DNA from: Stenotrophomonas maltophilia
GTDB lineage: Bacteria; Pseudomonadota; Gammaproteobacteria; Xanthomonadales; Xanthomonadaceae
Direction of reading: 5' to 3'
DNA: 64,000 nucleotides
Assembly: GCF_900186865.1 (NCBI RefSeq)
Contig: NZ_LT906480.1
Coordinates: 4,296,001 to 4,360,000 of the forward strand
Shown: in pieces, positions 37,070 through 40,151 of the stretch
How the letters are laid out: every line of letters starts with the position of its first letter
Position numbering within the stretch: the stretch's first letter is position 1
The notes under the pieces: generated by a model
Told to the model about the DNA's origin: nothing
What the model saw: only the letters and a program-made list of their open reading frames with translations
The model's database searches: none
Program-made: the position numbers and the translations under genes

Positions 37070-37888
37070 ATGCGCCCCGTACCCACCCTGCTCGCCTTCT
37101 CCCTGCTCGCTGCCGGCGCCTCGTTCGCCAATGCGGCCCACGCCGCCGAAGGCGATGACCGCTTTGCCATCCGTCTGGGTGCGATGAACATCGATTCGGA
37201 CAACACCCTCCGCGGCAGCACCACCGTGGCCGGCCAGGACATCTCCCTGAACCAGGACTTCAAGCTGGGTGGCAAGGAATGGGAGCCGCGCATCGACGGC
37301 ATGTTCCGCATCAGCAACCGTCAGCGCCTCCTGTTCAACTACTTCAAGTACGACAAGGACCGCCGCGAGACCCTCGACCAGGGCATTTCCTTCGGCGGTG
37401 AGAACGTGCCGGCCGGCAGCTTCGTGAAGGGTGAGCTGAAGTACCAGGTGGCCAGCCTGGTCTATGACTACTCGGTGGTTGATACCGACACCTTCGACCT
37501 CGGCCTGCAGATCGGTGGCGAGTACGCCAAGGTCAGCACCAAGGGCTACGCCGACCTGGGCACGGTGTACGAAGGCCAGTTCCTCGACGAGAAGGCCGAT
37601 GGCGTGGCACCTGTGGTGGGCGCCCGCATGACCTTCACGCCGTCCGAGCGCTGGATGATCACGCTGCAGGGCCAGTACCTCAACACGCGCTGGGGCAGCT
37701 TCGATGACTACAAGGGCGACCTGAGCCGCGCCAATGCCATCGTCGATTACCGCTTCACCAAGAACTTCGGCGTGTTCGCCGGCTACGACTGGTTCAAGCT
37801 GGACGTGGACAAGAAGGGCAGCGACGGTACTGTCGGCCTGAAGCAGGAATTCAAGGGCCCGGTGGCCGGTATCAGCTTCGTGTTCTGA
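37070..37888 (+). CDS. Outer-membrane beta-barrel protein
   Basis: This 272-residue protein has a signal peptide (MRPVPTLLAFSLLAAGASF...AHAA). The mature chain alternates aromatic and polar residues in strands (RFAIRLGAMNIDSDN, RQRLLFNYFKYDKDRR, WMITLQGQYLNTRWGSF, NFGVFAGYDWFKLDVD) and ends in a terminal aromatic (SFVF), the outer-membrane sorting signal. It resembles OmpA/OmpW-type small barrels, but I cannot name it. The start at 37070 follows AAGGA by eight bases; an ATG at 37046 is less likely. Confidence 0.8.
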   Translation: MRPVPTLLAFSLLAAGASFANAAHAAEGDDRFAIRLGAMNIDSDNTLRGSTTVAGQDISLNQDFKLGGKEWEPRIDGMFRISNRQRLLFNYFKYDKDRRETLDQGISFGGENVPAGSFVKGELKYQVASLVYDYSVVDTDTFDLGLQIGGEYAKVSTKGYADLGTVYEGQFLDEKADGVAPVVGARMTFTPSERWMITLQGQYLNTRWGSFDDYKGDLSRANAIVDYRFTKNFGVFAGYDWFKLDVDKKGSDGTVGLKQEFKGPVAGISFVF

Positions 37889-37922: not shown

Positions 37923-37955
37923 CGCGGCCTCCGGAACATCGGGGCCGCGTTTTTT
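37923..37955 (+). terminator. Terminator of the barrel gene
   Basis: CGCGGCC/GGCCGCG with a loop of about 13 bases is followed by T6. It lies 34 bases after the stop codon. Confidence 0.82.
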
Positions 37956-37990: not shown

Positions 37991-38088
37991 CGCGGGGGGA
38001 GAGGGGCTTGCGTGCGAATGTCCCCCGGCGCCGGCCTACGGCCGACGCCTCCTCCTTTACTTCGCACACAAGCCCCTCTCCCCCCGCG
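37991..38088. repeat. Long-armed hairpin element, type I loop, copy A
   Basis: The arms 37991-38018 and 38061-38088 are complementary at 27 of 28 positions; the exception keeps a G-U pair. The 42-base loop contains CCTCCTCCTTTAC and an inner eight-base hairpin. The loop, in reverse orientation, matches copy B at 38141-38244, while the arms do not. Confidence 0.85.
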
Positions 38089-38140
38089 TGTCAGGAATCC
38101 GGGCGGCTTTGGCACTGGCTCTGACTATCCGCAAGCCGAT

Positions 38141-38244
38141 CCACTGCGCGGGTGGCGGGCGTTTCGACAAAGTAAAGGAGGAGGCGACCGCCACAGGCGG
38201 GCGACGGGGGACATTTGTCGAAATGCCTGCCACCCGCGCAGTGG
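38141..38244. repeat. Long-armed hairpin element, type I loop, copy B
   Basis: The arms 38141-38171 and 38214-38244 are complementary at 29 of 31 positions, both exceptions being G-U pairs. The loop is again 42 bases, starts GTAAAGGAGGAGGCG and ends GGGGGACA, with an inner hairpin. Copy A has the same loop in inverted orientation but other arms. Confidence 0.85.
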
Positions 38245-38290
38245 CCCGGACCCTCGCGATGACAACAGCCGAAGACATTCCTGCAGCCAA

Positions 38291-38320
38291 CAAAAAACCC
38301 CGGCAGAAACCGGGGCTTTT
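38291..38320 (-). terminator. Terminator of lpd
   Basis: On the minus strand CCCCGG/CCGGGG with a six-base loop is followed by T6. It lies about 25 bases beyond the lpd stop codon. An opposite T-tract makes it partly bidirectional. Confidence 0.82.
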
Positions 38321-38342: not shown

Positions 38343-40151
38343 TTACTTCTTCTTCGGCATGTACAGATCGGTGATCGTGCCGTCGTAGATTTCCGAGGCC
38401 ATCGCCACCGACTCGCTCAGCGTCGGATGGGCATGGATGGTGTGGCCGATGTCTTCGGCTTCGGCACCCATCTCGATCGCCAGGCCGATCTCGGCCAGCA
38501 GGTCACCGGCGTGCACGCCGACGATCGCACCGCCGATGATGCGGTGGGTTTCTTCGTCGAAGATCAGCTTGGTGAAGCCCTCGGTGCGGCCGATGCCGAT
38601 CGCGCGGCCACTGGCGGCCCACGGGAACTTGGCCACGCCGACCTTCAGGCCCTTGGCCTTGGCTTCGGTCTCGGTCACGCCAACCCAGGCGATTTCCGGG
38701 TTGGTATAGGCCACCGACGGAATCACGCGGGCCACCCATTCCTTCTTGTGGCCAGCAGCCACTTCGGCGGCCAGCTTGCCCTCGTGCGTGGCCTTGTGGG
38801 CCAGCATCGGGTTGCCGACGATGTCGCCGATGGCAAAGATGTGCGGCACGTTGGTGCGCATCTGGCGATCAACCGGGATGAAGCCACGGTCGGTGACCTG
38901 TACGCCGGCCTTCTCGGCATCGATCTTCCTGCCGTTCGGCGAGCGACCCACGGCCACCAGCACGCGGTCGAAGGTGCCCTGCGCCAGCGCAGGCGCCTGG
39001 CCTTCCTCGGCAGCGTCGAAGGTGACGGTGATGCCCTTGGCATCGGCGGTGACGCCCGAGGCCTTGGTCTTCAGGTGCACTTCGATGCCCTGCTTCTTCA
39101 GGCGGTCGGCCAGCGGCTTGACCAGGTCCTTGTCGGCGCCCGGCATCAGCTGGTCCATGAACTCGACCACGGTGACCTTGCTGCCCAGCGCGCTGTACAC
39201 GGTGGCCATTTCCAGGCCGATGATGCCGCCGCCGACGACCAGCAGCGAGCCCGGCACTTCGGCCAGCTCCAGCGCGTCGGTGGAATCCATCACGCGCTTG
39301 TCGTCCCACGGGAAGTTCGGCAGCTTCACCGCCTGCGAACCGGCGGCGATGATGCACTTCTGGAAGCGCAGCAGCTGGGTGCTGCCGTCAGCAGCGGTGA
39401 TTTCCAGCTCGTTGGCCGAGATGAACTTGCCGACGCCCTGCGCGTTGCGGACCTTGCGCTGCTTGGCCATGCCGGCCAGGCCCTTGGTCAGCTGGTTGAC
39501 GACCTTTTCCTTGTACTGGCGCAGCTTGTCCAGGGTGATGGTCGGCTTGCCGAACTCGACGCCAAAATCACCGGCATGGGCCACTTCGTCGATGACCGCT
39601 GCGGCGTGCAGCAGCGCCTTGGACGGAATGCAACCCACGTTGAGGCAGACGCCGCCGAGGCTGGCGTAGCGTTCGACCAGCACCGTATCCAGACCGACGT
39701 CGGCAGCGCGGAAGGCGGCGGTGTAGCCGCCCGGGCCCGAGCCCAGCACGACCATCTCGCATTCGATGTCGGCCGGCTTGCCGCTGGACAGCGCCGGCTT
39801 CGGCGCAGCCGGTTCGGCCGGGGCGCGGTGCGACGGGGTCACCGGCGGCTTGCTGGCCGGAGCGGCTGCAGCCGGAGCCGGCGCAGCAGCCTTGGCCGGG
39901 GCTTCGGCGGCGCCTTCAGCGTCCAGCACCACGACCACGGCGCCTTCGGACAGGGTGTCGCCCAGCTTGACCTTGATTTCCTTGACCACGCCGGCAGCCG
40001 AGGACGGCACTTCCAGGGTGGCCTTGTCCGATTCCAGGGTTACCAGACCCTGGTCCTTCTTCACCGTGTCGCCGACGGCGACCAACACTTCGATCACCGG
40101 CACATCGCTGTAATCGCCGATGTCGGGAACCTTGACTTCAATCGTGGCCAT
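38343..40151 (-). CDS. lpd: Dihydrolipoyl dehydrogenase (E3) with N-terminal lipoyl domain
   Basis: This 602-residue flavoenzyme reoxidises dihydrolipoamide in pyruvate dehydrogenase. Residues 1-80 form a lipoyl domain (lipoyl Lys43 in ESDKATLEV), followed by an Ala/Pro-rich linker (81-125) and the E3 core: FAD motif GSGPGG (137-142), redox pair Cys169/Cys174 in GGVCLNVGCIPSK, NAD motif GGGIIGLEMA and the C-terminal HAHPTLSE active-site His. E3 proteins with their own lipoyl domain are known in Neisseria and betaproteobacteria. It is 108 bases downstream of aceF. Confidence 0.95.
   Translation of the reverse strand: MATIEVKVPDIGDYSDVPVIEVLVAVGDTVKKDQGLVTLESDKATLEVPSSAAGVVKEIKVKLGDTLSEGAVVVVLDAEGAAEAPAKAAAPAPAAAAPASKPPVTPSHRAPAEPAAPKPALSSGKPADIECEMVVLGSGPGGYTAAFRAADVGLDTVLVERYASLGGVCLNVGCIPSKALLHAAAVIDEVAHAGDFGVEFGKPTITLDKLRQYKEKVVNQLTKGLAGMAKQRKVRNAQGVGKFISANELEITAADGSTQLLRFQKCIIAAGSQAVKLPNFPWDDKRVMDSTDALELAEVPGSLLVVGGGIIGLEMATVYSALGSKVTVVEFMDQLMPGADKDLVKPLADRLKKQGIEVHLKTKASGVTADAKGITVTFDAAEEGQAPALAQGTFDRVLVAVGRSPNGRKIDAEKAGVQVTDRGFIPVDRQMRTNVPHIFAIGDIVGNPMLAHKATHEGKLAAEVAAGHKKEWVARVIPSVAYTNPEIAWVGVTETEAKAKGLKVGVAKFPWAASGRAIGIGRTEGFTKLIFDEETHRIIGGAIVGVHAGDLLAEIGLAIEMGAEAEDIGHTIHAHPTLSESVAMASEIYDGTITDLYMPKKK

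Follow-up and report, generated by a model that had tools for sequence, protein, structure and literature searches.

Two long-armed hairpins with a common loop and different arms lie close together in an intergenic gap of Stenotrophomonas maltophilia, raising the question of whether they are chance palindromes, a local duplication, or copies of a selected, folded element with a wider distribution. The window analysed here is the whole 64,000-nucleotide (64-kb) stretch of contig NZ_LT906480.1 that contains them.

Architecture of the hairpin pair and its relatives

Consistent with the original prediction, an inverted-repeat search of the window recovered two hairpins in opposite orientation, separated by a 52-nt spacer (38089..38140). 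Hairpin A (37991..38088; arm class 2, motif strand minus), supported by inverted repeat, fold and model R1 (95.5 bits, 38005-38074), has 28-nt arms (37991-38018 and 38061-38088) that are 96% complementary and enclose a 42-nt loop (38019..38060, minus strand) made up of GTAAAGGAGGA, an inner stem-loop (38027-38049) and GGGGGACA. Hairpin B (38141..38244; arm class 1, motif strand plus) rests on the same three lines of evidence (87.9 bits, 38158-38227); its predicted 31-nt arms were recovered and extend to 36 nt (38136-38171 and 38214-38249) at 89% complementarity, and pattern and fold give its 42-nt loop (38172..38213, plus strand) the same order of parts as that of A, with the inner stem-loop at 38183-38205. 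Read on their opposite strands, both loops start GTAAAGGAGGAGGC and finish GGGGGACA, a pattern that occurs twice in the window and in 0 of 100 shuffles. Within the internal loop, position 38053 (A) contacts 38024 (G) on the minus strand of hairpin A, as 38179 does 38208 in hairpin B; certain copies elsewhere have the swapped G-A contact here. For the motif strands, folding z-scores are -10.7 (A) and -10.6 (B); the opposite strands score -10.6 and -7.5. The claim that the arms share no sequence holds in part: they are largely different, but both finish in C(A/G)AA adjoining the loop, and A and B together form a larger, 77% inverted repeat of 66 nt.

The doublet sits between convergent genes which, judging by their translations, probably encode an outer-membrane-protein-like product (ORF ending at 37888, plus strand) and an lpdA-like product (38343-40151, minus strand). 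Terminator-like hairpins occur on each side, one belonging to the left gene and preceding the doublet (37929..37954, plus strand), the other a hairpin with a T-run read in the sequence at the end of the lpdA-like gene (38292..38315, minus strand), a stem that the terminator scan also listed on the plus strand. Elsewhere in this 5.0-Mb, single-contig genome no further exact copy of the loop pattern occurs; allowing up to 3 mismatches raises the total from 2 to 6, and the other four lie together at 577 kb, in alternating orientation, as an array of two doublets. The corresponding site of genome G048 contains three class-2 hairpins and one complete class-1 hairpin.

Across the wider family, the outer stem of most copies measures some 21-60 bp and is followed by an internal loop of the form RTMAAGGAGGA / GGGGGACA and an inner stem ranging from about 3-4 bp to about 10 bp. 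Variovorax copies have inner stems of about 3-4 bp and 28-30-nt loops, and the arms of G072 copies are near-perfect over up to about 60 bp. The 5' side of the loop reads RTMAAGGAGGAGG in 266 of 290 copies and a close variant in the remainder. Complementary flanks, as predicted, accompany the loop in 179/187 unique copies with flanks (over 24 bp) and in 67/69 Burkholderiales copies (26 bp), in a scoring that makes no distinction between G-T and A-C.

What the original prediction overlooked is that A and B belong together, as a single unit whose hairpins differ in arm class and favour one orientation relative to each other. Copies are usually organised as doublets of two dissimilar hairpins, one of each arm class, and the G-rich motif strands point outward in 114 of 125 two-copy clusters (inward in 2, tandem in 5 and 4), counts in which orthologous sites of related genomes recur. 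All 18 pairs at the Burkholderiales loci examined are likewise outward, with 104-118 bp from loop to loop; the distance between loop edges is about 110 bp in these pairs and in the window doublet, and wider in G154 (some 115-135 bp) and G924 (>200 bp). With the G-rich strands pointing outward, each DNA strand has one hairpin in the correct sense. Doublets of G924 (L329, L333) are enclosed by an outer inverted repeat resembling GCTATTGAATTTGTAGCG, apparently another repeat family.

Distribution, genomic setting and turnover

Loop copies in related genomes had been set beforehand as the test of the prediction, and they proved numerous. The exact loop pattern was found in 39/91 same-genus genomes and a covariance model (E <= 0.001) recovered the element in 56/91, the S. 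maltophilia genome being included in both counts, with at least 55 matches in the richest of them. The first such model was built from 20 diverse copies. Within the Lysobacteraceae the covariance model identified the element in 57/297 genomes and 7/54 sampled genera, own-genus genomes included. A pattern scan of named genomes returned at least 120 matching stretches, and among the matches listed are Stenotrophomonas, Luteimonas, Lysobacter and Thermomonas together with Variovorax, Ramlibacter, Rhodoferax, Hydrogenophaga and Pseudorhodoferax on the Burkholderiales side. A second model (E <= 1e-5) detected the element in 4/369 genomes of a class sample and 6/299 of a phylum sample, where the best 13-16 candidates per genome were scored and weak carriers may be missed; all carriers belong to the element's own family or to one other (f108). 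These copies across genus, family and Burkholderiales rule out that the pair is no more than a local duplication, and the window pair is one unit of a bacterial repeat family spanning two proteobacterial families.

Carriage by phages was ruled out by a pattern scan of viral contigs and by blastn of phage records with a Variovorax doublet as query, neither of which gave a match. The plasmid set contains no match to the window doublet; three Variovorax replicons of 1.2-1.3 Mb in that set carry 15 places resembling the Variovorax doublet (7 in NZ_CP070344.1 and 4 each in NZ_CP138514.1 and NZ_CP138516.1).

No copy lies inside a gene predicted by a crude codon-score gene finder (0/105 and 0/120 clusters). 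Among 98 clusters with genes called on both sides, 30 occupy convergent, 62 tandem and 6 divergent gaps; among 258 background gaps no shorter than 60 bp the corresponding counts are 22, 153 and 83. Where a single copy lies between tandem genes, it is sense in 19 cases and antisense in 13 (P 0.38), and on this absence of a significant strand bias (n=32, low power) we set aside an mRNA 3'-UTR element read in the sense direction. Association with one gene family was likewise rejected: the 150 of 238 flanking proteins scanned have no common family, the commonest Pfam families occurring in just 5.

That a doublet is present or absent at a site as one unit is well supported. At one site compared in 26 chosen Stenotrophomonas genomes, the 4 known carriers have the whole doublet and the other 22 lack it, with a short intergenic stretch instead; in G034, the genome with most flank homology at the empty site, the junction lacks a clear duplication. 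The lpdA and 577-kb sites record mainly loss and array change: depending on the genome, they hold a complete doublet, one hairpin alone, an internally deleted form, REP-type palindromes in place of the doublet, or none of these. The replacing palindromes (GTAGATCCACGCCATGCGTGGAT or GTAGAGTCGACTGTCAGTCGACT) were seen at one or other of these two sites in L158, L161, L164, L387-L389, L391 and L392. Deletions of one hairpin or half of one at the 577-kb site (L379, L380, L381, L382) have junctions seemingly at short direct repeats, as expected of replication slippage across a hairpin. Several G924 copies are closely similar to one another and have different flanks, which suggests that copies have spread inside this genome.

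One explanation of this distribution is that the host keeps the doublet at the 3' ends of genes as a structural or boundary DNA that insulates convergent genes, its extruded hairpins stopping read-through, retaining supercoils or binding a nucleoid protein. The enrichment in convergent gaps, the avoidance of divergent (promoter) gaps and the REP-type palindromes at several doublet-free sites all agree with such a role. A symmetric cruciform, however, predicts no excess of G-T pairs on one strand, as documented below, and complete absence is tolerated in those 22 of 26 genomes; we consider this explanation improbable.

A vehicle is evident for a minority of copies. Ten of 239 clusters lie between GGTTCTTCTCCC-type, ISL3-like inverted ends 371-616 bp apart, compared with 0.15 expected on average from 20 shuffled motifs; six come from G072, a copy-rich genome assigned to the same genus as the window, three from G154 (another genus) and one from Stenotrophomonas sp. 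Ste86. Elements with such ends at L108, L109 and L114 (G154), L065, L120, L122, L193, L201 and L259 contain doublets or single hairpins. The 8-bp flanks of the ten cases agree at 8/8 positions in one, 7/8 in three, 6/8 in one and fewer in five, A/T-rich flanks raising chance agreement. In G008 (L179:3565 onward) the same type of end precedes an ISL3-family transposase gene, beside a degenerate hairpin copy. Both ends are absent from most clusters, so that the copies as a whole are not ISL3-type MITEs, and outside these cases no fixed terminus and no clear duplication of the target came to light. A terminal inverted repeat common to the family was rejected: apart from the ISL3-type subset and a marginal case in Variovorax, flank scores stayed mostly at control level. 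ISL3-type elements are thus one vehicle and not the family's definition.

Y1_Tnp transposases (PF01797) were detected in 19/22 and 8/10 element-bearing genomes searched, and not in G253, G268, G283, the copy-rich G924 or G1017. No hairpin copy was found near Y1_Tnp in 30 and 21 loci (38 distinct among the 51 Y1 matches) scanned mostly 1.5 kb on either side. The absence of copies at these loci, and of Y1_Tnp from some copy-rich genomes, rules out a RAYT-associated REP. A long-type Y1 protein was noted in several element-bearing Burkholderiales and Lysobacteraceae genomes (L367-L374, L127-L130), and 8 of 10 Burkholderiales-side genomes searched have a single Y1 match each. Our guess is that these long-type proteins belong to TnpA-Y1 subclasses 2.1/2.3. 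Both Y1 genes of copy-rich G072 resemble the short type, and a link between the long type and the hairpins is therefore not supported.

Selection for folding and the purine contact

Compensatory change, for which a check with a covariance model had been proposed, is pervasive. When 20 copies were aligned with MAFFT without structural guidance, two-sided change was seen in 16 of 22 pairs and the covariation score was 0.497, compared with 0.199 for shuffled and at most 0.122 for slid pairings. A model-fitted alignment of 132 copies, which is biased towards the structure, gave two-sided change in 22/22 pairs and a score of 0.554 (0.147 shuffled, at most 0.105 slid). The G-C to C-G change first noticed between the inner stems of A and B is real and recurs across the hairpin family. 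Shuffles, folding scores, covariation and recurrence together rule out chance palindromes and bear out the proposal of a selected fold.

The same pattern holds within a single orthologous site. A copy is present at 45 of 57 lpdA loci compared (several genomes being represented more than once), which yielded 23 distinct class-1 and 27 distinct class-2 hairpins. Class 1 has two-sided change in 11/32 pairs, some of it in a single sequence only, including an even split at pair 7 (G-C 10, C-G 9), GC-GT-AT series at pairs 11 and 29, and the opposite direction at pair 23 (C-A 3, T-G 1); class 2 has two-sided change in 22/25 pairs, with several copies per site included. By these two-sided changes, resident copies appear to be kept foldable in place. 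It is well supported that the outer and inner stems are free to drift while pairing is maintained.

Wobble pairs indicate which strand is concerned. A G-T pair on one strand is A-C on the other, and a constraint acting on double-stranded DNA or a cruciform therefore predicts equal counts. On the motif strand of Lysobacteraceae copies we counted 211 G-T and 29 A-C pairs in all copies, and 99 and 9 after removal of copies at least 85% alike (68 scored of 73 copies, 24 bp). Burkholderiales copies gave 132 and 5, or 68 and 3 de-duplicated in the same way (33 scored of 35 copies, 26 bp), and among 31 additional Xanthomonadales copies, some of them from the same set of genomes, the 22 scored yielded 22 and 3. 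For chance hairpins behind six other heads the G-T/A-C ratio was 0.8 to 2.1 (GTTG 44:21, GTGG 74:60, GATG 43:39, GCAG 59:75, GTAC 8:10), the GTAG-head REP control (5 G-T, 6 A-C) having too few hairpins to inform. The bias is weaker at the lpdA site alone (class 1, 32:17 over 32 bp; class 2, 26:8 over 24 bp) and not evident in 20 copies from G072 (4:2, 20 bp). The copies are related, and binomial P values for these counts are indicative only. An excess of wobbles on the G-rich strand means that this appears to be the strand that must fold, and constraint on the G-rich strand of each hairpin is well supported. This points to one DNA strand, or its RNA, being kept foldable for some purpose.

A purely mutational origin, in which template-switch repair perfects quasi-palindromes and ordinary MITEs spread the copies without any selection on folding, could draw on G072, with its near-perfect arms and lack of evident wobble bias, as well as on the ISL3-type ends in two genera and the apparent deletions at short repeats inside hairpins. 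It does not predict the strand-biased wobbles found elsewhere, nor a loop nearly fixed across two families with a swap between A-G and G-A, and we regard it as very improbable.

Structured RNA is the main alternative. RNA transcribed from each G-rich strand, either from its own promoters in the spacer or through transcription running on from neighbouring genes, would fold and bind a protein or stabilise 3' ends; protein binding through repeated GGA motifs in CsrA/RsmA targets is a possible parallel for such RNA reading. Both the G-T over A-C bias and the GC-GT-AT series are classic hallmarks of RNA, the two stems covary round a near-fixed loop with a swapping A-G contact, and convergent gaps are enriched while divergent ones are avoided. 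Several observations stand against it: with respect to the upstream gene, single copies do not significantly favour either strand (19 vs 13, low power); the window doublet lies beyond the terminator-like hairpins of both convergent genes; a simple consensus scan, of little power in GC-rich DNA, found no sigma-70-like promoter in the 52-nt spacer; the neighbouring genes have no evident common pathway, given the scatter of Pfam families noted above; and no Rfam family reached threshold, the window giving no match at gathering score and a single miRNA family, far under its threshold, being all that L218, L189 and L224 returned. Wobbles and in-place persistence fit RNA as well as or better than the reading of single-stranded DNA (ssDNA). 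The lack of a clear strand bias relative to genes and the position past both terminators at the window site tip the balance towards ssDNA, and we judge structured RNA possible but rather unlikely.

The internal loop offers a more specific constraint. It is well supported that this purine loop is nearly fixed and has a non-canonical A-G contact; its bases hardly vary across 290 unique copies, a near-fixity that arises partly from search patterns requiring purines. Position 8 of the 5' side is coupled to the third G of GGGGG, in the states A-G (271 copies), G-A (11), A-A (6) and G-G (2), with a mutual information of 0.150 compared with 0.005 for the next pair (Fisher P 4e-14). Because Stenotrophomonas and several Burkholderiales loci both have copies in the swapped state, the swap probably arose more than once. 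Such coupling points to a direct purine-purine contact that would form in the folded single strand, and we infer that the flanking G runs may be opposed as G-G pairs or quartets. A bolder proposal builds on this geometry: the two hairpins, one per strand, would be joined through their near-fixed purine loops as a mobile or self-maintaining DNA of a new class. GGAGG, with a central A-G contact that most often changes by swapping to G-A, could lie opposite GGGGG in a four-stranded G-rich junction, alone or with a putative protein. If true, synapsis would proceed through nucleic acid structure and not through a transposase bound to double-stranded ends, though we hold this proposal to be doubtful.

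The reading we prefer, at a probability of roughly 45% and so a little short of even, is a REPIN-like doublet of a new kind that is read as a folded single strand by a putative protein. The feature in the window would then be one copy of a dispersed, non-coding repeat with the doublet as its unit. The putative protein would recognise the folded strand, and its target would most likely be ssDNA laid bare during replication, as has been proposed for REPIN/BIME doublets; such recognition may both spread doublets and hold resident copies fold-competent. In two genera the doublet is also packaged in ISL3-type miniature elements, where a transposase acting in trans could spread it. Scans of Y1 loci and of flanking proteins found no trans-acting protein for the doublets. 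Both halves of the original suggestion of a small mobile hairpin or a structured RNA still stand; presence or absence of whole doublets and the ISL3-type vehicles favour a dispersed DNA element, and the wobble bias fits either RNA or ssDNA.

Relation to known systems

No published description of this hairpin family was recognised, subscription papers and supplements being outside the scope of the search. The closest parallel is with REPINs/BIMEs, described as inverted extragenic hairpin doublets that spread in genomes, form tandem arrays and undergo compensatory changes (PMC3116915, PMC2817692). Like them, the window family has an inverted doublet as its unit and is extragenic and dispersed, with arrays, compensatory changes and single copies that are probable remnants. 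It differs in having no GTAG or GTGG head, so that the test for a GT(A/G)G head was negative, in its hairpins of mostly about 85-115 nt with a near-fixed purine internal loop, in the two arm classes per doublet, and in having no copy at the scanned Y1 loci and no Y1 gene in some copy-rich genomes.

Within Stenotrophomonas itself, SMAG repeats (consensus GTAGTGCCGGCCGCTGGCCGGCA) are described as short and GTAG-bearing (PMC2613905) and correspond to GTAG families 6-9 (PMC3733652). They resemble the window family as intergenic palindromes of the same genus, and REP-type palindromes occur at the same sites in other genomes, but their short length and GTAG tag set them apart from the window-family hairpins. 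GGAGGAGG is absent from the Stenotrophomonas REPs in the table of PMC2817692, and the string does not appear in the main text on REP diversity in ten Stenotrophomonas strains (PMC3686654).

Other mobile systems match in part. ISL3-family MITEs share with the 10 of 239 clusters, in two genera, the arrangement of hairpins between GGTTCTTCTCCC-type ends, whereas the window family conserves its hairpins and not its ends, most copies being end-less. BRE, a beta-proteobacterial repeat element 75-91 bp long, is described from Bordetella and Comamonadaceae, where it forms arrays and is mostly found between genes (PMC3110155); as described there, it differs in that its copies follow one another in tandem with few or no intervening bases, and some lie inside genes. 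TnpA-Y1 subclasses 2.1 and 2.3, which PMC6006769 presents as lacking REPs or a known hairpin substrate, are presumed ssDNA-processing enzymes, and Y1 proteins of a longer type are present in several of the element-bearing genomes but were not found in every one.

Palindromes in high copy number occur dispersed across bacterial genomes, and the best-described type relies on RAYT enzymes that read a GTAG-tagged hairpin. The window family has the same doublet layout with a different, near-fixed recognition core and no RAYT beside the copies checked, and it spans two distant families with free-living soil bacteria among its carriers. Its purine internal loop, with one swappable contact, is a handle with which to find a protein that reads the single strand or to demonstrate a role as RNA.
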